Positions 25,668 to 54,205 of a stretch of DNA of 64,000 bases are shown here, in pieces. The stretch comes from Psychroserpens sp. SPM9 (GTDB lineage: Bacteria; Bacteroidota; Bacteroidia; Flavobacteriales; Flavobacteriaceae). Both the position numbers and the translations under genes were made by a program. Numbering within the stretch: position 1 is the first letter of the stretch; each line of letters begins with the position of its first letter. The notes below the pieces were generated by a model, which was not told the DNA's origin, made no database searches, and worked only from the letters and a program-made list of their open reading frames with translations. Location of the stretch: positions 434,001-498,000 of the forward strand of contig NZ_JANZNR010000002.1 in the NCBI RefSeq assembly GCF_025153525.1. The letters are read 5' to 3'.

Positions 25668-26045
25668 ATGTCATTTACATATCCAAAAAAAGAAAAGCTA
25701 AAAAGTCAAAAACTCATAGAGCAATTATTTTCTGAAGGCAAATCGGTTTCGGCTTATCCGCTGCGAATGGTTTACTTAAAAACAAGCTTTGACGACGATA
25801 CTCAATTTAAAACAGGTGTTTCAGTAAGTAAGCGAAATTTTAAAAAAGCTGTCGATAGAAATCGCATCAAACGCTTATTGAGAGAAGCTTACCGACTTCA
25901 TAAATCGACTTATTTTAACAACATTTCACCTTGTTATGCGTTAATGATTTTGTACCTTGGTAAGGATGGAACAGATTTTGATTCCGTAGAAACAAAAATG
26001 AAACAACTTTTAGATACTTTTTCAAAAAAGGTATCCAAACACTAA
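25668..26045 (+). CDS. rnpA: Ribonuclease P protein component
   Basis: 125 residues. The RNR motif is complete (KAVDRNRIKRLLREAYR), with the family N-terminus (KKEKLKSQKLIEQLFSEG) and the SVSKR motif. It supports the catalytic RNA of RNase P in tRNA 5' maturation. It is not next to rpmH here; instead it sits 9 bases after the S24 regulator and 11 bases before the CtpA-type protease, an arrangement I regard as normal for flavobacteria. Confidence 0.96.
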   Translation: MSFTYPKKEKLKSQKLIEQLFSEGKSVSAYPLRMVYLKTSFDDDTQFKTGVSVSKRNFKKAVDRNRIKRLLREAYRLHKSTYFNNISPCYALMILYLGKDGTDFDSVETKMKQLLDTFSKKVSKH

Positions 26046-29977: not shown

Positions 29978-30412
29978 TTAGCATGCTACTGGAATCTTAT
30001 CCACTCGCTTTTGATGGCGACCACCTTCAAATTCGGTATTTAAAAAGGTATCGACCATTTCAATAACTTGTTGTAAAGCCGTAAAACGGGCAGGTATACT
30101 TAAAATATTAGCATTGTTGTGTTGTCGCGCTAAAGCTGTAATTTCTTTGGTCCAACATAAGGCCGAACGGACACCTTGATGCTTATTAGCTGTCATATTA
30201 GCGCCATTCCCACTACCGCAAACAATAATACCAAAATCTACTTTTTTAGATTCAATATCTTGAGCAACCGGATGAACAAAATCAGGATAGTCAACACTAT
30301 CATTTGTATTTGTTCCGTAGTTATTAACAGTATAACCTTTGGCTTCTAAATGTGCTACAATAGCTTGTTTATACTCGGTTCCCGCGTGATCATTACCTAT
30401 TGAAATATTCAT
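29978..30412 (-). CDS. rpiB: Ribose 5-phosphate isomerase B
   Basis: 144 residues, typical length. The N-terminal sequence MNISIGNDHAGTEYK, the catalytic-site segment GIIVCGSGNGANMTANKHQGVR and the conserved HNNANILSIPAR are all present. It interconverts ribulose- and ribose-5-phosphate in the pentose phosphate pathway. It is the first gene of a minus-strand operon with the CDF transporter and GNAT protein, facing the long AT-rich gap before rnr. Confidence 0.95.
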   Translation of the reverse strand: MNISIGNDHAGTEYKQAIVAHLEAKGYTVNNYGTNTNDSVDYPDFVHPVAQDIESKKVDFGIIVCGSGNGANMTANKHQGVRSALCWTKEITALARQHNNANILSIPARFTALQQVIEMVDTFLNTEFEGGRHQKRVDKIPVAC

Positions 30413-31160
30413 GATTTTGAAGTGTTGTTTAAAACCTTAAAGTTAATAATTGCTAACAAATAAAACCAAGGATAACTGCTTTAGTTATCCATAATAATTA
30501 AGTTTATCAGATTATGAATTTGAGCTCCTTAATAAAGGCTGTTAACATCATGTAGAATTTTAGGGATTACTTGTTCATATCTTGTCTAAAGTAATTATAA
30601 CTTTTATTAGGATTATCTATTAATTTTTTCAAACAAAAAAGACTCTTAGAAAACCTAAAAAGTTAATCGTTTTTTTTGGCGAAGTTATCAGCATACAAAT
30701 CTTAAGATACCAACAAGAATTTTAGAAATACTTTTCAAATTTAAGTTGTCAACAGTGGTTATCAACAGCTGTTAATAGTATTCTAAATACACTTAAAAAT
30801 GAGCAGTTTAAATGTAAAATTAATGTTAACTACATATTAAGTAATTCTTATAAGTCATATATCAAAACAAAAGTTTAAAAAGTTATAGACGCTATTAACA
30901 AGCAATAATAAGCATCATTTTATTTTTTAAATTTTAAAAGAAAAAAGATGATATGTATATATATGTTGATAACATAAGTTTTTAATTTAGATGATTTAAT
31001 CTATAATGAAATTTATCTTAAAAATAAATCATTCAATTTTTTTATTTACATTACTATATACAAAGGAAAAGCAACTAAAAATATAAATATAGAATAAAGG
31101 ATTTTACAGGACCTTTCCATTAATTTAACGTAGATTAAACACTATTAAATAATTAAACCG
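30413..31160. other. AT-rich gene-free gap with DnaA-box-like sites; candidate replication origin
   Basis: No supportable gene is present on either strand. Several sequences resemble the DnaA box (TTATCCACA): TTATCCATA at 30485-30493, TTATCAGCA at 30685-30693, TTGTCAACA at 30746-30754, TTATCAACA at 30759-30767, and TTATCAACA on the minus strand at 30964-30972. The third and fourth are a 13-base direct repeat. The stretch from 30840 to 31090 is almost all A/T, like a DNA-unwinding element. Against the idea, gene strand does not switch clearly here. Parts may instead be the rpiB and rnr control regions. Confidence 0.4.
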
Positions 31161-31168
31161 TAGATTTG
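31161..31168 (+). promoter_or_regulatory. Putative -7 box of rnr
   Basis: TAGATTTG matches TAnnTTTG. It gives a leader of roughly 85 bases containing two stem-loops. Confidence 0.5.
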
Positions 31169-31172
31169 CAGA

Positions 31173-31206
31173 AACTTAATAGCTTCTCTCCTCCTTCTAT
31201 TAAGTT
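31173..31206 (+). promoter_or_regulatory. Stem-loop 1 in the rnr leader with a pyrimidine loop
   Basis: AACTTAATAG and CTATTAAGTT form a perfect 10-bp stem around a 14-base loop, CTTCTCTCCTCCTT. The loop contains CCTCCTT, the same as the anti-Shine-Dalgarno core at the 3' end of most 16S rRNAs. It could be a regulatory RNA structure for rnr. Confidence 0.55.
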
Positions 31207-31217
31207 AAAATTTAGAA

Positions 31218-31236
31218 TTCCTAACACTTTTAGGAA
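31218..31236 (+). promoter_or_regulatory. Stem-loop 2 in the rnr leader
   Basis: TTCCTAA and TTAGGAA form a perfect 7-bp stem around CACTT, ending 21 bases before the rnr ATG. Confidence 0.45.
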
Positions 31237-31257
31237 AAGAATATGATTACAAATTAA

Positions 31258-33447
31258 ATGACAAAAAAGAAAAAAAGGAAATCATCACATAACAAGATTT
31301 CCAACCTTACAAATACCATTCTAAGTATTTTAAAAAAAGATAGAAATCAAACTTTTAACTATAAACAAATTGCTGCTAAACTTGGTGTTAATGATGCTAG
31401 TAGCAGAAATCAAATTATAAAGAAACTTCAGCAGCTCAAAGCAAAGCAAGAGATTGAAGAAGTAGATCGTGGTAAATTTAAAGCTATCATTAATACCGAA
31501 TACCACATTGGTATCGTCGATATGGCGTCCAGAGGTTCAGGTTATATTATCAGCGACGATTTTGATGAAGATATCTACATTGCTTCAAATAATATGAATA
31601 AAGCCCTTCATGGTGATGAGGTCGAATTCTATGCCTATAAACGAAGAAAGCGTGGCAAGATAGAAGGTGAGATTACCAATATTATCAAACGTGCAAAAAG
31701 TGAATATGTTGGTGTGATCCAGATTCATAAAAGTTATGCTTTTGTGGTTCCGGATGGCAATAAAATGTATACCGATATTTTTGTTCCTATCAATAAAATT
31801 AACAAAGCCGAAGAAGGTGATAAAGTACTGGTATCTCTCGAAGACTGGCCAGAAAAAGCCGATTCTCCTTACGGGAAAGTTCTTAAAGTCCTTGGAAAAC
31901 CAGGGGAACACAATACCGAGATTCATGCAATCCTTGCCGAATACGGTTTACCAATGGAATTTCCGCACGAAGTCGAAGAATTTGCTAATAAAATAGATAC
32001 CTCTATTACCAAAGAGGAAATCGCCAAGCGTCGTGATATGCGGCAAGATTTAACCTTTACTATCGATCCCAAAGATGCTAAAGATTTTGATGATGCTTTA
32101 TCTTTTAAAGTGCTGGATAATGGTTTATATGAAATCGGAATTCATATCGCAGATGTCTCTCACTATTTACAAGAAGGTACCATTCTCGATGATGAAGCCT
32201 ATGAGCGTGCAACCTCTGTGTATTTGGTAGATAGAGTAGTACCAATGCTTCCTGAAATCTTATCAAATGGTGCATGTTCATTACGTCCACATGAAGAAAA
32301 ATACACTTTTTCTGCAGTGTTTAAAATGAACGATAAAGCCGAAATTAAAGACCAGTGGTTTGGGCGAACGGTGACCTATTCTGATGCGCGTTTTGCTTAC
32401 GAAGAAGCACAGGCTATCATAGAAACCAAAGCCAACCAGATTCCAGCTGAAGTATCCTTAACCGGAAAGCCTTATTTAGCCAATCAAGCTGTTGCTGATG
32501 CTGTTTTAAAACTCGACGAGCTTGCCAAAATCATGCGTCGTAAACGTATGAGTACAGGCGCTATTTCATTTGATAAAGTCGAAGTTAAATTCAATTTAGA
32601 CGAAGAGGCTAACCCAATAGGTGTCTACTTTAAAACGAGTAAAGATGCTAATAAATTGATTGAAGAATTTATGCTATTAGCTAACAAAAAAGTGGGTGAA
32701 TTTGTGGGTAAACAAAAGAAGACTTTCGTGTATCGTGTACACGACGAACCCGATGATTCTAAATTAGCAGCCTTACAAAATGTGGTCGGACGCTTTGGTT
32801 ATAAACTCAATTTTAAAGACCGAAAAAGCGTGTCTGCCTCATTAAACAATCTCCTTAAAGATGTGAACGGTAAAAAGGAACAAAACCTGGTCGATACACT
32901 TACGATTCGTACCATGAGTAAAGCCGAATATTCCACACATAATATTGGGCATTACGGACTCGCATTTGACTATTACAGTCATTTTACATCGCCTATCAGA
33001 CGATATCCTGATGTGATGGCACATCGCTTACTTCAGCATTATTTAGATGGCGGAAAATCGGTGAGCGAAGAGGCTTACGAAGATAAATGTAACCATTCCA
33101 GCAATATGGAAAATCTCGCCACTAAAGCCGAAAGAGATTCAATCAAATACATGCAGATTCGCTTTATGGAAGATCATAAAAACGAAGAATTTGTCGGTGT
33201 CATTTCTGGGGTGACCGATTGGGGAATTTATGTAGAAATTATCTCCAATAAATGTGAAGGTATGGTGAGTGTTCGCGATATGAAAGACGATCATTACGAA
33301 TTTAATGAAGACCATTATGCACTCATTGGTAAAAATTCAAAAACCATGTATCAACTTGGTGATGAGGTAGTTGTAAAAGTTAAAAATACCGATTTGGTTA
33401 AAAAACACTTAGATTTTACCTTAATCGGTAAGCACGAAGCTTCTTAA
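31258..33447 (+). CDS. rnr: Ribonuclease R
   Basis: 729 residues. An N-terminal winged-helix-like segment (YKQIAAKLGVNDASSRNQIIK) is followed by OB/cold-shock domains, the RNB catalytic core (DPKDAKDFDDALS with its metal-binding Asp residues, about 272-284; later HYGLAFDYYSHFTSPIRRYPD) and a C-terminal S1 domain (FVGVISGVTDWGIYVEI). It is a 3'-5' exoribonuclease that degrades structured RNA and matures rRNA. Lysine-rich start MTKKKKRK. It has its own promoter and a structured leader; an intergenic repeat follows. Confidence 0.96.
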   Translation: MTKKKKRKSSHNKISNLTNTILSILKKDRNQTFNYKQIAAKLGVNDASSRNQIIKKLQQLKAKQEIEEVDRGKFKAIINTEYHIGIVDMASRGSGYIISDDFDEDIYIASNNMNKALHGDEVEFYAYKRRKRGKIEGEITNIIKRAKSEYVGVIQIHKSYAFVVPDGNKMYTDIFVPINKINKAEEGDKVLVSLEDWPEKADSPYGKVLKVLGKPGEHNTEIHAILAEYGLPMEFPHEVEEFANKIDTSITKEEIAKRRDMRQDLTFTIDPKDAKDFDDALSFKVLDNGLYEIGIHIADVSHYLQEGTILDDEAYERATSVYLVDRVVPMLPEILSNGACSLRPHEEKYTFSAVFKMNDKAEIKDQWFGRTVTYSDARFAYEEAQAIIETKANQIPAEVSLTGKPYLANQAVADAVLKLDELAKIMRRKRMSTGAISFDKVEVKFNLDEEANPIGVYFKTSKDANKLIEEFMLLANKKVGEFVGKQKKTFVYRVHDEPDDSKLAALQNVVGRFGYKLNFKDRKSVSASLNNLLKDVNGKKEQNLVDTLTIRTMSKAEYSTHNIGHYGLAFDYYSHFTSPIRRYPDVMAHRLLQHYLDGGKSVSEEAYEDKCNHSSNMENLATKAERDSIKYMQIRFMEDHKNEEFVGVISGVTDWGIYVEIISNKCEGMVSVRDMKDDHYEFNEDHYALIGKNSKTMYQLGDEVVVKVKNTDLVKKHLDFTLIGKHEAS

Positions 33448-45235: not shown

Positions 45236-48200
45236 ATGGCGAATAATTTTAAACAAATACAGGGCAAGTTAGAGCAGTTTATCAAGCGGTACTATACCAA
45301 TGAATTGCTGAAAGGCGTTATTTTATTTTTTGCCATCGGATTATTGTATTTGATTGCCACCTTGCTCATTGAATATTTTTTATGGCTGAATCCTACAGCC
45401 AGAACCATTTTGTTCTGGGTTTTTATTGGAGTAGAACTGGCTTTATTTGCAAAGTTCATTGCCTTTCCATTGGCTAAATTATTCAAATTACAAAAAGGCA
45501 TCAACTACGAAGACGCTTCACAAATTATAGGGAATCACTTTCCTGAAGTCAATGATAAATTACTCAATGTTCTTCAGTTAAATCAAACCCGTGAGCAATC
45601 AGAACTTTTAGAAGCCAGCATCGAACAAAAATCTGCCGAATTAAGCCCAATTCCGTTCAAATTAGCCATCAATTTTAAAAAAAACGCCAAATATTTAAAG
45701 TATGCAGCCATCCCAGTTGCTATTTTGCTATTGTCATTTATAACAGGAAAAATCAATTGGTTTAGCGATAGCTATGAGCGTGTTGTCAATTATAAAACCG
45801 CCTACGAACCGCCAGCGCCATTTCAATTTTTTGTCGTTAATGAGGATTTAAAAGCCATAGAAAATAAAGATTTTAAAGTGACTGTGAACACAGCTGGAGA
45901 GCTCATCCCAGAAAATGCACAGATTCATTTTAACAACCAATCCTTTTTTATGCAGCAAAAGGCGCCTGGACAATTTGAGTATGTGTTTTCTCAACCTAAA
46001 GAAGCACTTACGTTTAGCTTGTCTGCCAATGATGTACTTTCAAAAAACTATACGCTTGATATTATCAAAGTACCTACTTTGGTGAATTTTGAAATGGTAC
46101 TGGATTATCCTGCTTACACCAAAAAACAAGATGAAGTTTTAAAAAGTACGGGAAGTTCTACCATTCCTGAAGGAACCAATGTGACCTGGAATGTCCTTAC
46201 AAAATCTACAGATGAGGTTGTGTTTTATTCCAAAGACACGGTTGTTTTTAAACCTGTTTCTGAAGGAAAATTCGAGGCGACAAAACGTATTTTTGCTAAT
46301 ACAGATTATAGTATCAGTACGAGTAATAAGCAACTAAAGGACTACGAAAATCTAGCCTTTTCAATTAATGTGATTAAAGATGCTTATCCTGAATTGGATG
46401 TCAAAATGGAAAAGGATTCTTTAGACAATCAAACCCTGTATTTTTTCGGGCAAGTTAGTGATGATTATGGGTTGAGCAAGTTGCAAATGGTGTACTATCC
46501 AAGCCATAACCCTGAAGCCAAATCTTATGAGGCAATGCCTGTTTCAAAATCAAATTTTGATGAGTTTGTAAGTGCGTTTCCAAATCAGTTAAACCTAGAA
46601 GCAGGAGTTGACTACGAATTGTATTTTCAGGTGTTTGATAATGATGCCTTACATCAATATAAAAGCTCAAAAAGTTCGGTGTTTAGTTACAGAAAGCTAA
46701 CTAAGGATGAAGAAGAGCAAAAGCAACTCGAAGAGCAGAATGAGACTATTAAAGACATCAGCAATACTTTTGATAAGCTTAAAGAACAAGATCAAGAGTT
46801 AAAAGAGTTTTCTAAAACTCAAAAAGAAAAGAAAGAGCTCAATTTTAATGACAAAAAGAAATTTGAGAATTTTATCAAACGTCAAAAAGAACAAGAGCAA
46901 TTAATGAAAAATTTCAACAAAAAGTTGAAAGAAAACATTGAAGAATTTCAAAATGAAGATAAGGAGGAAGATCAGTTTAAAGAAGATTTACAAAAGCGCT
47001 TAGAAGAAAATGAAGAGCAACTCAAAAAAGACGAAAAACTTTTAGAAGAGTTGGAGAAGATGAAAGATAAAATTAACAAAGAAGAGTTTACTCAGAAATT
47101 AGAACAGTTAGCGAAACAAAATAAAAATAAAGAGAAAAGCTTAAAGCAACTTTTAGAATTGACAAAGCGTTTTTATGTGGCTAAAAAGGCTGAAAAATTA
47201 CTCAAAGAATTAGAGCAGTTAGCTGAAGAACAAGAACAACTTTCAGAAGAAAAGAAAGAAAATAACACTAAAGAAGCTCAGGAGAAACTCAACGAAAAAT
47301 TTGAAGATTTCCAAAAGCAAATGGAAGATCTTGACAAAGAAAATCAAGAACTCAAAAAGCCTATGGAGTTGCCTCAGGATAAGCCCACAGAGGAATCTAT
47401 AAAACAAGATCAAAAAGAGGCTACAGATGCTTTAGAAGCGCAGAAAAAGCAAGATGAGCAAGAGCAGCAAGAACAAGGTGGCGACAAACCTGAAGAACAA
47501 GAACCAGGCGAAGAACCACAAGAAGGCGATAAGCCTCAAGGTCCACAACCTGACCAGCAAAAAGCGAAGCAAAAGCAAAAGCAAGCGGCAAAAAAAATGA
47601 AAGAGATGACGACCAAAATGTCTCAGGCAATGCAAATGGGAGGTGGTGAACAAATGCAGGAAGACATTGATGTGTTACGACAAATCTTAGATAACCTGGT
47701 GTTGTTTTCATTTGATCAGGAAAATTTAATGAATCAATTTAAAAGCATAGAAGTTAACCATAATGAATATGGAAAATTTTTGCGTAAACAGAGTAACTTA
47801 AGAGAGCATTTTGAACACATCGATGATAGTCTTTTCGCATTGTCTTTACGTCAACCTGCTATTTCTGAACAGGTCAATTCACAAATTACCAATGTGCTCT
47901 ACAATATAGATAAATCTTTAGGTCAATTATCTGAAAATCAAATATATCAAGGTATTTCTTCCCAACAGTATACCATTACAGCTACCAACGAATTAGCTAG
48001 TTTTTTGAGTGATGTTTTAGATAATATGAACATGCAAATGAATCCTTCAATGGGTCAAGGGCAAGGTCAGGGTCAACAATTACCAGACATTATTATGAGT
48101 CAGGAAGAACTCAATAAAAAGATGCAGGAAGGGATGAAAAAAGGAGAAGGACAAAAGCCCAAAGAAGGTGAAAATGGAGAAGAAGGCGAGGGGAAAGGTG

Positions 48201-48715
48201 AAAAAGATGGAGAAAATGGCGATTCCAAAGATGGTAAAGAAGGGAAGGAAGGTAAAGAAGGCCAACAACAAGGCGAGGGTGAAGGTCAAGGCGATAGCGA
48301 ACAAATAAACGGTGAACTTTATGAGATTTATCAACGTCAGCAACAATTGCGTCAGGCTTTAGAAAATAAACTTGGCGAGGAAGGTAAAAAAGGACCTGGC
48401 GGGCAATTACTTAAAAAGATGGAAGAGATTGAATTGGATTTAATCAATAAAGGGTTTACCAATCAAACACTTCAAAAGATGATGGATTTACAACATCAGC
48501 TACTGAAATTGGAAAATGCTACTTTTATGCAAGGTCAAGACAATAAACGTAAATCTGAAACCAATAATAAGGTATATGATAATAGCATTCCAAATCAAAT
48601 TCCTACCGCTAAAGAATATTTCAATACTACTGAAATTTTAAACCGACAAGCATTACCTTTGCAACAGGTTTATAAAAAGAAAGTTCAAGAGTATTTTAAG
48701 AAAGTTAATGATTAA
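45236..48715 (+). CDS. DUF4175 large membrane protein with charged coiled coil
   Basis: 1159 residues. Two N-terminal membrane helices (GVILFFAIGLLYLIATLLI; ILFWVFIGVELALFAKF) and a third near 150 (AIPVAILLLSFITG) are followed by immunoglobulin-like beta domains and then a very long Glu/Lys/Gln-rich coiled coil (about 490-830). A Gly/Glu/Lys-rich low-complexity stretch (about 940-1030) and a C-terminal helical part follow. The family is typical of Bacteroidota; its role is not established. It overlaps ybeY by 8 bases, so the two are co-transcribed. Confidence 0.85.
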   Translation: MANNFKQIQGKLEQFIKRYYTNELLKGVILFFAIGLLYLIATLLIEYFLWLNPTARTILFWVFIGVELALFAKFIAFPLAKLFKLQKGINYEDASQIIGNHFPEVNDKLLNVLQLNQTREQSELLEASIEQKSAELSPIPFKLAINFKKNAKYLKYAAIPVAILLLSFITGKINWFSDSYERVVNYKTAYEPPAPFQFFVVNEDLKAIENKDFKVTVNTAGELIPENAQIHFNNQSFFMQQKAPGQFEYVFSQPKEALTFSLSANDVLSKNYTLDIIKVPTLVNFEMVLDYPAYTKKQDEVLKSTGSSTIPEGTNVTWNVLTKSTDEVVFYSKDTVVFKPVSEGKFEATKRIFANTDYSISTSNKQLKDYENLAFSINVIKDAYPELDVKMEKDSLDNQTLYFFGQVSDDYGLSKLQMVYYPSHNPEAKSYEAMPVSKSNFDEFVSAFPNQLNLEAGVDYELYFQVFDNDALHQYKSSKSSVFSYRKLTKDEEEQKQLEEQNETIKDISNTFDKLKEQDQELKEFSKTQKEKKELNFNDKKKFENFIKRQKEQEQLMKNFNKKLKENIEEFQNEDKEEDQFKEDLQKRLEENEEQLKKDEKLLEELEKMKDKINKEEFTQKLEQLAKQNKNKEKSLKQLLELTKRFYVAKKAEKLLKELEQLAEEQEQLSEEKKENNTKEAQEKLNEKFEDFQKQMEDLDKENQELKKPMELPQDKPTEESIKQDQKEATDALEAQKKQDEQEQQEQGGDKPEEQEPGEEPQEGDKPQGPQPDQQKAKQKQKQAAKKMKEMTTKMSQAMQMGGGEQMQEDIDVLRQILDNLVLFSFDQENLMNQFKSIEVNHNEYGKFLRKQSNLREHFEHIDDSLFALSLRQPAISEQVNSQITNVLYNIDKSLGQLSENQIYQGISSQQYTITATNELASFLSDVLDNMNMQMNPSMGQGQGQGQQLPDIIMSQEELNKKMQEGMKKGEGQKPKEGENGEEGEGKGEKDGENGDSKDGKEGKEGKEGQQQGEGEGQGDSEQINGELYEIYQRQQQLRQALENKLGEEGKKGPGGQLLKKMEEIELDLINKGFTNQTLQKMMDLQHQLLKLENATFMQGQDNKRKSETNNKVYDNSIPNQIPTAKEYFNTTEILNRQALPLQQVYKKKVQEYFKKVND

Positions 48716-49136: not shown

Positions 49137-49144
49137 TATATTTG
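49137..49144 (+). promoter_or_regulatory. Putative -7 box of mnmG
   Basis: TATATTTG matches TAnnTTTG. A parS-like palindrome lies between this box and the start codon, within the presumed leader. Confidence 0.45.
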
Positions 49145-49169: not shown

Positions 49170-49185
49170 TGTTCCACGTGGAACA
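49170..49185. other. parS-like centromere site 1
   Basis: TGTTCCACGTGGAACA is a perfect 16-bp palindrome. It matches the broadly conserved bacterial ParB site (TGTTTCACGTGAAACA) at 14 of 16 positions and keeps symmetry at the two that differ. A second copy is 2.37 kb away. No other site of this quality was seen in the window. Confidence 0.85.
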
Positions 49186-49197
49186 ATACAATATATT

Positions 49198-51069
49198 ATG
49201 TTCAACGATTTATATGATGTCATTGTTGTAGGCGCAGGTCACGCTGGAAGTGAAGCTGCTGCCGCTGCTGCTAATATGGGAAGCAAAACCTTATTGGTGA
49301 CAATGAATTTGCAAAACATTGCACAAATGTCTTGTAATCCTGCGATGGGAGGCATTGCTAAAGGACAAATTGTAAGGGAAATTGATGCTCTAGGAGGATA
49401 CAGTGGTATTGTAAGTGATACTTCGGCAATTCAATTTAAAATGTTGAACAAATCTAAAGGACCCGCTATGTGGAGTCCGAGAGTTCAAAGTGACCGTATG
49501 CGTTTTGCTGAAGACTGGCGATTGCTTTTAGAGCAAACTAAAAACTTAGACTTCTATCAGGAAATGGTGTCTGGATTGTTAGTTGAAAACCATAAGGTCG
49601 TTGGTGTGAAAACATCGCTCGGTTTGGAGATAAAAGCTAAAACAGTTGTTTTAACAAACGGAACATTTCTCAATGGCTTAATTCATATTGGCGATAAAAA
49701 TTTTGGAGGTGGACGCGCAGGAGAACGAGCAGCAACCGGAATTACCGAACAGCTTATTGACTTAGGTTTTGAATCTGGAAGAATGAAAACTGGAACGCCG
49801 CCACGAGTTGACGGTCGCTCATTAGATTATTCTAAAATGATTGAACAGCCTGGTGACGAACAACCCGATAAATTTTCATATTTAGAACATATCAAACCAC
49901 TCAAAGAACAACGCTCTTGTCATATGACTTATACGAGCCCTGAAGTTCATGATTTACTTCGTGAAGGTTTTGATCGTTCGCCAATGTTTAATGGGAGAAT
50001 TCAAAGTACTGGACCAAGATATTGTCCGTCTATAGAAGATAAGATCAATCGTTTTGCCGATAAAGATCGCCATCAATTATTTGTTGAACCCGAGGGATGG
50101 AATACCGTTGAGGTTTATGTCAACGGGTTTTCAACATCACTTCCGGAAGATGTTCAGTTTAAAGCTTTAAAATCTGTTGCAGGTTTCGAAAATGTGAAAT
50201 TCTTCAGACCAGGTTATGCGATTGAATACGATTATTTTCCGCCAACGCAATTAAAACATACTTTAGAAACGAAGCTGGTAGATGGTTTGTTTTTTGCTGG
50301 TCAAATTAATGGAACAACAGGTTATGAAGAAGCAGCCTCCCAAGGCTTGATGGCAGGAATTAATGCAGCTTTAAAAGTTCAAGAAAAAGATGAATTTATC
50401 CTCAAACGCAATGAAGCTTATATAGGTGTTTTAGTCGATGATTTAATTACAAAAGGCACTGAAGAACCTTATCGAATGTTTACTTCCAGAGCAGAATATA
50501 GAACCTTATTGCGTCAAGATAATGCAGATTTTAGATTAACGCCTAAGGGATACGATTTAGGTTTAGCAAGCGAAACGCGATTAAGACGTATGGAAGAAAA
50601 GCAAAAGGAATCTGATAATTTTGTACAGTTTTTTAGAGATACTAGTGTAAAACCTGAAGAAGTAAATCCTATTTTAGAATCTAAAAATTCATCTTTAGTT
50701 AAACAATCTGATAAGATGTTTAAGCTGTTTTCTAGACCTAATATTGCTACTGAAGATATGCGTAAAATTGAAGCAGTTGAGAACTATATTCAAGAGCATA
50801 ATCTAGATACTGAGGTTATAGAACAAACCGAAATTCAAATCAAATATTCTGGATATATTGAAAAAGAAAAAAATAATGCCGATAAATTGAATAGGCTAGA
50901 GGACGTGAAAATCCCAGCTAATTTTGATTATACAAAATTAAAATCGATGAGCACTGAAGCTATTCAAAAGTTGACAAAAATTCAGCCAGTGACTATTTCA
51001 CAAGCGTCTAGAATTTCTGGTGTCTCTCCTGCTGATGTTTCTGTTTTATTGGTGTATTTAGGAAGGTAA
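49198..51069 (+). CDS. mnmG: tRNA uridine-5-carboxymethylaminomethyl modification enzyme MnmG (GidA)
   Basis: 623 residues. The FAD-binding start (YDVIVVGAGHAGSEAAAAAA), the conserved MSCNPAMGGIAKGQIVREIDALGG (parts), the TGTPPRVDGRS segment and FAGQINGTTGYEEAASQG are all typical. With MnmE it modifies the wobble uridine of several tRNAs. mnmG (gidA) is often found near replication origins. A parS-like site lies in its leader and another after its partner gene; the next gene starts in a TAATG overlap with its stop. Confidence 0.97.
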   Translation: MFNDLYDVIVVGAGHAGSEAAAAAANMGSKTLLVTMNLQNIAQMSCNPAMGGIAKGQIVREIDALGGYSGIVSDTSAIQFKMLNKSKGPAMWSPRVQSDRMRFAEDWRLLLEQTKNLDFYQEMVSGLLVENHKVVGVKTSLGLEIKAKTVVLTNGTFLNGLIHIGDKNFGGGRAGERAATGITEQLIDLGFESGRMKTGTPPRVDGRSLDYSKMIEQPGDEQPDKFSYLEHIKPLKEQRSCHMTYTSPEVHDLLREGFDRSPMFNGRIQSTGPRYCPSIEDKINRFADKDRHQLFVEPEGWNTVEVYVNGFSTSLPEDVQFKALKSVAGFENVKFFRPGYAIEYDYFPPTQLKHTLETKLVDGLFFAGQINGTTGYEEAASQGLMAGINAALKVQEKDEFILKRNEAYIGVLVDDLITKGTEEPYRMFTSRAEYRTLLRQDNADFRLTPKGYDLGLASETRLRRMEEKQKESDNFVQFFRDTSVKPEEVNPILESKNSSLVKQSDKMFKLFSRPNIATEDMRKIEAVENYIQEHNLDTEVIEQTEIQIKYSGYIEKEKNNADKLNRLEDVKIPANFDYTKLKSMSTEAIQKLTKIQPVTISQASRISGVSPADVSVLLVYLGR

Positions 51070-51539
51070 TGGAGCGTATTGGTTTAAAACAAGAGATTCC
51101 ATTAAGGCAAAAAATTTCTATTAGTTCACCCTTAATCGTTCTTGGTATTATTTTTTTGAATGAGAGTGTTCTCGTTGGATGCTTAGTTATTTTATTTGGC
51201 TTACTGGTTTTTAGTATCAACTATGCCTTGGTTATACCTAAAAGTTTTTCAAACTATTACCTGATTAGAAGCTTTAATATTCCATTATTTAAAGTCAAAA
51301 AGACTTTGTTTTTTCCTGATTATATTTCACTGTTTCATCAATCATTCAGACAATCTAATAATGTTGGTTTTCGACCTAATATTCTAAGTGATAGTAGCTA
51401 CAAATTATACACGATAAAGTTGTTCCAAGAACACAAGAACAAGATTATATTTACATCAACTAATAAAGCAGATGTTTTAAATTACGGACAAGATTTAGCC
51501 CAACTTTTAGGAGTAGAATTGTATAATACCTTAGAATAG
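51069..51539 (+). CDS. Hypothetical membrane protein coupled to mnmG
   Basis: 156 residues. Two hydrophobic helices (SSPLIVLGIIFLNESVLVGCLVILFGLLVFSI in parts) are followed by a soluble C-terminal domain. The start codon overlaps the mnmG stop (TAATG), indicating coupled translation. The stop codon overlaps the first base of the second parS-like site. No family is recognised. Confidence 0.7.
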   Translation: MERIGLKQEIPLRQKISISSPLIVLGIIFLNESVLVGCLVILFGLLVFSINYALVIPKSFSNYYLIRSFNIPLFKVKKTLFFPDYISLFHQSFRQSNNVGFRPNILSDSSYKLYTIKLFQEHKNKIIFTSTNKADVLNYGQDLAQLLGVELYNTLE

Positions 51540-51553
51540 TTCCACGTGGAACA
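51538..51553. other. parS-like centromere site 2
   Basis: AGTTCCACGTGGAACA shares the 14-bp core GTTCCACGTGGAAC with site 1. It begins within the stop codon of the mnmG-coupled gene. Confidence 0.82.
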
Positions 51554-53302: not shown

Positions 53303-54205
53303 ATGAGGTTAAATCAGCTATTAGAACAACCGTTTTTATATTTCAATACCGCTAAACGTAAGTGGGTTTATATCATTAGCGCGACACTTTTTGTCCATGT
53401 GTTTTTAATTATATTTCAGCCTTATGGCATTTCAGAAGAAATGGAAAACCCTGTAAATGAGGCGTCTAGTAAATTTTTATTCTTTTTTTCAATAGGAATA
53501 AGTACTTTACTGGGTTTGACGCTATCTCAATTTGTTTTGAGACCATTATTAAAGTTTGAAAACGTATCAATAAAAAAATACTGCGCATGGGTGTTTGTTG
53601 AAACACTTATTCTTTCGCTTATAAATTTTGGATTCTCATTTGTAATTCCCGATCTAGGTAATGATTTTGAAAACGAACTCAACTTCGCTTTTCAACTAAA
53701 AAACTATTTTAGAGCCTTTGTCATTTTATTATTTCCTCTCTTCGGAACCATTATTTATGTCCTCATTCAAGAGTTAACATTTGAAGTTAACGAACTTGGA
53801 GAACAGATAAAAAAATACCATAAAGCATTTGATACCTCAAGAACTAATACAGAGTTAAAGCTTAAAGATGAAAATAATAATTTAGACCTATCTATTGCAT
53901 TAAAAGATTTTCTTTATGCCGAATCAAGTAATCAATATATTGTTGTTCATTATATAAAATCGGGAACTCTAAAAAAACATATTTTAAGAAACCGCTTAAA
54001 GAATTTTCTAAACCAAAATAAATATATGTCTATAAAACAAAGCCATAGGTCTTTTGCTGTAAATTTGTTAAACGTGAAACATTTGTCGCGAATTAATGGT
54101 AAAGAGTTCCTGATAATTGCTACCAATCCTGCTATTAATATACCTGTTTCTAAATCGTATATAAAAGAGATTAAGAACGAAATAACTCAGCACTACAAAC
54201 TTTAA
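53303..54205 (+). CDS. Membrane LytTR-type transcriptional regulator
   Basis: 300 residues. Four membrane helices (about 21-42, 57-80, 91-113 and 134-156) are followed by a linker and a C-terminal LytTR domain (about 195-297; FLYAESSNQYIVVHY, KQSHRSFAVNLLNVKHL, INIPVSKSYIKEI). It has no sensor kinase partner and is likely a one-component membrane regulator. Three direct repeats with LytTR-like 21-bp spacing begin seven bases after its stop, ahead of the TonB receptor gene, which is the probable target. Confidence 0.88.
   Translation: MRLNQLLEQPFLYFNTAKRKWVYIISATLFVHVFLIIFQPYGISEEMENPVNEASSKFLFFFSIGISTLLGLTLSQFVLRPLLKFENVSIKKYCAWVFVETLILSLINFGFSFVIPDLGNDFENELNFAFQLKNYFRAFVILLFPLFGTIIYVLIQELTFEVNELGEQIKKYHKAFDTSRTNTELKLKDENNNLDLSIALKDFLYAESSNQYIVVHYIKSGTLKKHILRNRLKNFLNQNKYMSIKQSHRSFAVNLLNVKHLSRINGKEFLIIATNPAINIPVSKSYIKEIKNEITQHYKL

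Follow-up and report, generated by a model that had tools for sequence, protein, structure and literature searches.

Two palindromes that bracket the gene mnmG in Psychroserpens sp. SPM9 are very probably the parS centromere of the chromosome, used by a ParA-ParB pair that is encoded on another contig. This reading is carried by the sites themselves, their copy number and conservation, the parA and parB genes, the recognition residues of ParB and a switch in strand skew, and from it we infer ParB binding and spreading, partition and the exact place of oriC. The window analysed here is a stretch of 64,000 nucleotides (contig NZ_JANZNR010000002.1, positions 434,001 to 498,000), and all coordinates below are positions in it unless stated otherwise.

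Palindromes at the ends of mnmG

The features of the mnmG region are the following.

49137..49144, + strand: TATATTTG box, a match to the Bacteroidota −7 promoter box, 25 bp upstream of the 16-bp site 1
49170..49185, no strand: parS site 1, TGTTCCACGTGGAACA, a perfect 16-bp palindrome, with the mnmG ATG 12 bp further on
49198..51069, + strand: mnmG (gidA), encoding a tRNA-modification enzyme, the gene between both sites (PF01134, E 4e-163)
51069..51539, + strand: 156-aa ORF without a Pfam family, between mnmG and site 2, overlapping the mnmG stop
51538..51553, no strand: parS site 2, AGTTCCACGTGGAACA, with a perfect 14-bp core; it overlaps the preceding ORF at the stop codon

An exact search of the window found the 14-mer GTTCCACGTGGAAC at 49171-49184 and 51539-51552. 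These are the only two exact copies in the 3.81-Mb, 41-contig draft genome and lie 2,368 bp apart; the copies are thus few and clustered on the chromosome, and the many scattered copies that the initial annotation had named as evidence against parS do not occur. About 0.004 copies of an exact 14-mer are expected per genome by chance (arithmetic from ~35% GC), and the reversed control of the 14-mer pattern gave 0 matches in the same draft. Site 1 matches the chromosomal parS consensus TGTTYCACGTGRAACA at 16/16 positions and site 2 at 15/16. By sequence both palindromes are canonical chromosomal parS, which bears out the pattern match that had been proposed for them. When up to three mismatches to the 16-mer were allowed, 17 places in the genome matched, both sites included, as compared to 13 with the reversed control. 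Two parS-like near-matches, at 54067 and 61104, therefore carry no meaning alone and were dismissed, three-mismatch copies being about as common as the control.

The placement of the sites also agrees with the initial annotation, which had put site 1 between the promoter and the start of mnmG and site 2 on the stop of a partner gene. Site 1 follows the ybeY stop (49118) and precedes the start codon of mnmG (49198), downstream of the promoter-like box at 49137-49144, and site 2 overlaps the TAG of the ORF at 51069-51539, whose ATG in turn overlaps the mnmG stop. The gene downstream of site 2 encodes a methyltransferase.

We searched 149 Flavobacteriaceae genomes from 148 genera for the motif GTTYCACGTGRAAC and found it in 147, with exactly two copies in 121; the reversed control occurred in 2 of the 149. 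Among the listed coordinates, which cover 35 genomes, 32 genomes carry a pair of sites separated by 1,894-2,078 bp, roughly one mnmG length; the other three are G016 with one site, and G023 and G072 with extra sites and different spacing. At 29 of 30 loci in relatives, a site is no more than about 80 bp from the start or end of mnmG, the exception being L025 in G023. Two genomes, G005 and G123, had no mnmG at E 1e-60. Because the DUF4175 gene that neighbours the region is absent from them too, this gap is likely a missing piece of the assembly; G035, which has a parS and lacks the DUF4175 neighbour, weakens that reading. The joint loss of mnmG and parS in G005 and G123 was set aside as support for linkage and counted neither way.

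At the best 80 of 573 mnmG matches (L212-L291, the named loci), parS is found at both ends of mnmG in 80/80. There are 99 5' sites, 12 loci carrying two to four, and in all 80 loci they end 10-137 bp upstream of the start codon. Seventy-three of the 3' sites are located 2-64 bp past the stop codon and seven at 339-479 bp; in six of these seven loci, a homologue of the 156-aa ORF (25-31% identity, 6/80 loci) separates mnmG from the site. In Aestuariibaculum suncheonense (L269) the homologue comes after parS instead. The form GTTCCACGTGGAAC accounts for 141 of the 179 sites. Among the MnmG matches listed, which may not include entries from SPM9 itself, the closest come from Arcticiflavibacter luteus (94% identity to the query) and, at 93%, Psychroserpens jangbogonensis. 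The two-ended parS bracket is the rule in Flavobacteriaceae as sampled.

Conservation of this kind leaves hardly any room for chance palindromes or for E-box-like sites of another regulator. CACGTG cores do occur in the sites of unrelated regulators, but two copies were found against about 0.004 expected, both at mnmG, and the same places are occupied in 80/80 named loci, which rules this reading out.

In 65/80 named loci, the 120 bp that precede the first 5' site contain TAnnTTTG, which corresponds to the −7 promoter box of Bacteroidota, as compared to 9% of random windows; the motif most often ends 26-27 bp from the site. Because the box sits upstream of the 5' sites, site 1 is probably transcribed and would lie inside the mnmG leader RNA. 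The palindromes might then act as RNA hairpins, an attenuator in the mnmG leader and a terminator, with their likeness to parS secondary. We consider this very unlikely. In the mnmG sense, 5' sites in the 80 named loci show GTTTCACGTGGAAC in 14 cases and GTTCCACGTGAAAC in one, a preference that keeps a U.G pair (3' sites: 13 versus 10), 3' sites are flanked by A-rich and T-rich sides, and some flanks pair above shuffles (for example −3/+3 at both sites and −1/+1 at 3' sites). The other flanking positions, however, pair no more than shuffles (counts that ignore shared descent), the RNAs of the window fold no better than shuffled sequences (z −0.21 and −0.36), and a search for terminator-like sites found none at site 2. 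CACGTG, which was fixed in the search pattern, is present at both ends of 80/80 loci, as ParB would need and a hairpin loop would not, and RNA structure leaves the co-occurrence of ParAB and the location near the origin unexplained. The 14-to-1 orientation bias of the 5' sites, a count that likewise ignores shared descent, could be caused by C-to-T mutation bias.

The ParA-ParB pair and condensin

The genome encodes a cognate ParA and ParB. Its single ParB_N protein is 299 aa long (contig C33, PF02195 match), and the adjoining gene encodes a 254-aa ParA-type ATPase. Solved chains of ParB and Spo0J match this ParB with E values of 3e-45 to 2e-51; Noc proteins also match it well (best 6e-47, others weaker). 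It contains the GERRFRA motif, described as a motif of chromosomal ParB in the available part of PMC7333895.

We numbered the recognition residues without gaps from the G of GKKR, equated with G170 of the Caulobacter protein, which gives Q162, G170, K171, K172, R173, N178, Y179, K184, G201 and R204. According to the accessible portion of PMC7383237, the parS contacts common to ParB and Noc are Q162, G170, K171, S172, N178 and R204, and R173 and G201 are the positions that are altered in Noc and separate parS readers from it; parS-specific variants always kept R173 and preferred G201, and K or R is found at 184 in about 28% of ParBs. Read in this register, the ParB of SPM9 has R173 and G201, the parS-type rather than the Noc-type pair. 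One contact position departs, with K172 instead of S172; Myxococcus ParB has E at this position. Because the key parS-reading residues are kept, this ParB is expected to recognize parS rather than the Noc site.

ParB is predicted to load as a clamp at each parS site and, once loaded, to spread across mnmG and nearby DNA. ParA would then move the origin-proximal ParB-parS complex, so that sister origins would part soon after initiation ~18 kb away. Such a system resembles the chromosomal ParABS of Bacillus, Caulobacter and Pseudomonas (parS TGTTTCACGTGAAACA) in its palindrome of the 16-bp class, its ParA-ParB pair, its few copies and its location near the skew origin. Unlike those systems, it has parS fixed beside mnmG with parB 23-35% of the chromosome away (six relatives, below), favours the form GTTCCACGTGGAAC in the 80 named loci, and occurs in a family in which ScpA, the partner of ParB-loaded condensin, was not found.

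A profile search for ScpA (PF02616) gave no match in 11/11 Flavobacteriaceae, among them the genome of SPM9, where a site for loading Smc-ScpAB would call for it; ScpA was found in 5/5 genomes from three other Bacteroidia families. For two gut Bacteroidetes, Bacteroides caecimuris and Muribaculum intestinale, the available text of PMC10197239 describes no known condensin, parS clusters at the origin, and an origin that is not always at dnaA. SPM9 is like them in these respects: parS marks the origin region and dnaA is an unreliable marker. Unlike in the present case, mnmG (gidA) is not mentioned for the gut species in that part of the source. The failure to find ScpA, together with the condensin result of PMC10197239 as far as its accessible part goes, therefore makes it probable that parS here serves ParA-driven partition rather than Smc-ScpAB loading, on a search that covered ScpA. 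Partition in a family with ParABS and without detectable ScpA may not involve the usual condensin.

Location of the replication origin

The initial annotation had suggested that the window is near oriC and that a location far from the origin by GC skew would speak against this. Skew on the window's own contig (C22; 20 stretches plus the window) and in five relatives places parS near the replication origin. On C22 the best single switch lies inside the window, at about 36,000, and the four next-best are at 28-44 kb. Its placement is loose by some tens of kb, with cuts at 16, 20 and 60 kb explaining 0.16 of the variance as compared to 0.19 for the best cut. No strand-preserving permutation out of 300 was as good as the C22 switch, on a permutation cut grid half as dense. 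Upstream of ybeY, the gene at 45236-48715 encodes a DUF4175 protein of 1159 aa with a high content of K, E and Q. This gene probably drives the local peaks of AT and GC skew near 44-50 kb, and these peaks are therefore not to be read as an origin signal.

The dnaA gene is on another contig (C36), so its distance from parS is not readable within the draft. In six relatives with a single contig (G143, G125, G078, G059, G023 and G087), the distance from parS, as a share of the chromosome, is 32-49% for full-length dnaA and 23-35% for parB. Chromosome numbering from dnaA misplaces the origin in all six. G143 has a short second DnaA_C match besides full-length dnaA, and the full-length gene is about 3% from the fitted terminus.

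For five of these relatives we took twenty 20-kb samples each, with four more for G059, and fitted an origin to gene-level third-position skew. The distance of parS from the fitted origin was 1.3% of the chromosome in G143, 1.7% in G125, 1.9% in G078, 0.9% in G059 and 6.0% in G023, where the fit is weak. The combined p for parS near the fitted origin in the five is about 3e-4, a value bounded by the sampling grid. When raw GC skew was fitted in a simpler way, the distances were 8.8% (G143), 1.7% (G125), 1.9% (G078), 2.3% (G059) and 14.7% (G023).

The features of the probable origin are the following.

25668..26045, + strand: rnpA, 4 kb from the probable oriC (PF00825); an origin-cluster gene in other phyla
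29978..30412, − strand: rpiB, left border of the probable oriC (PF02502)
30413..31257, no strand: probable oriC, an AT-rich gap between divergent rpiB and rnr; 845 bp, 16% GC over 300 bp
31258..33447, + strand: rnr (RNase R), right border of the probable oriC (PF00773)

The gap at 30413-31257, an AT-rich intergenic region at the skew switch, is the likely candidate for oriC and is ~18 kb from parS site 1. It contains three one-mismatch DnaA boxes in 480 bp (TTATCCATA, TTATCAACA and TGTTGATAA), the only cluster of three such boxes within 600 bp in the window; the exact DnaA box TTATCCACA is absent from the candidate oriC of this genome. Third-position skew in G059 reverses somewhere from 379 to 399 kb, and the 5' end of rnr is at 386 kb. 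The distance between rnr and parS is about 3-58 kb in 13/13 relatives for which both coordinates are listed. DNA upstream of rnr is AT-rich in 14 relatives (lowest 300-bp GC 16-24%), with rpiB within 1.5 kb upstream of rnr in nine of the 14 and 0-5 one-mismatch DnaA boxes (none in three, one cut short). We aligned 14 sequences, that of SPM9 included, leaving out L172, which is cut by a contig end. The alignment runs from a shared block near TATTAACA through an AT tract to a DnaA box, which is exact (TGTGGATAA) in L171, L173 and L175 and reads TGTTGATAA in SPM9. The first shared block is absent or blurred in three of the 14 aligned rows (L174, L176 and L183).

The parS-mnmG linkage across Bacteroidota

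The motif is present in 274 of 296 Bacteroidota genomes, in exactly two copies in 191; the reversed control occurs in 14/296. In other families of the same class, mnmG is adjacent to parS at 18 of the 24 loci among those listed, with sites on one side only, 5' in 16 and 3' in 2; at the other six (L194-L198 and L206), mnmG is not adjacent. We sampled the phylum with 30 genomes, comprising the first listed from each of 26 families outside the class, all of which carry the motif, so that the draw favours it, together with the known class exceptions G183 and G321 and with G005 and G123. Twenty-eight of the 30 have mnmG, and parS is within 1.5 kb of it at 24 of these 28 loci. Ten of the 24 carry parS at both ends, four on the 5' side only and nine on the 3' side only; the last, L296, is cut by a contig end. 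No parS was found within 1.5 kb of mnmG at L292, L293, L299 and L317. In a small control from other phyla (n = 4; Acinetobacter, Priestia, Fusobacterium and Staphylococcus), none of the loci has parS at mnmG. The mnmG-adjacent parS looks ancestral in Bacteroidota.

An ancestral origin cluster that contains mnmG, rpmH-rnpA-yidC-jag-mnmE-mnmG-rsmG-noc-parA-parB, was observed in Priestia and, partly, in Staphylococcus. SPM9 is like this cluster in having rnpA and mnmG near the probable oriC. Unlike in the cluster, mnmG is preceded by ybeY and followed by the methyltransferase gene, and dnaA and parAB lie on contigs other than C22 in SPM9 and far off in relatives. In Priestia and Staphylococcus the parS-like sites found are confined to parB or the DNA beyond noc, and none is at mnmG. 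The simplest account is that parS and mnmG would be a remnant of the ancestral cluster (rnpA ... mnmG ... parAB), from which dnaA and parAB would have moved off, with parS and mnmG staying together.

The sites could be parS and their placement at mnmG functional, ParB loaded in the leader blocking or metering transcription and so making mnmG expression depend on the occupancy of the centromere. TAnnTTTG upstream of the 5' sites in 65/80 named loci, which makes transcription of site 1 probable, and the 5' side of the sites at 16 of the 18 class loci with mnmG adjacent are in favour of this, as is the silencing of genes near parS by plasmid ParB that the available part of PMC7333895 reports. Transcript changes in parA and parB mutants of Pseudomonas aeruginosa are, from what is accessible of it, the subject of PMC3909081. 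Shared ancestry alone nevertheless suffices for the linkage, and the nine of 28 phylum loci with only 3' sites count against regulation through the leader; we think such a function unlikely. A wider form, that mnmG is held inside the centromere, seems doubtful to us. ParB at the leader, and in the family also past the stop, would couple mnmG expression to the centromere and replication and would have preserved parS at mnmG throughout Bacteroidota, even as dnaA and parAB changed place and Flavobacteriaceae lost Smc-ScpAB.

If the palindromes are the parS centromere, mnmG with an adjacent parS is a sequence marker for the origin region where dnaA misleads, and the question arises of what keeps a centromere next to a single tRNA-modification gene. 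The parts of ParABS are known; the lasting tie between parS and mnmG, two-ended in Flavobacteriaceae, is what this analysis adds. We found no literature on parS at the ends of mnmG in a search that covered titles and the starts of abstracts, with most subscription papers outside it.

The linkage also appears in records filed as plasmids, in the two-ended form in Riemerella and with two downstream sites in Prevotella. The Riemerella anatipestifer record (NZ_CP081938.1, L329) is a 101,897-bp circle with two parS bracketing mnmG. It carries the chromosome-type genes mnmG, glmM, pckA and gldH, and may be a piece of the chromosome or a misassembly.
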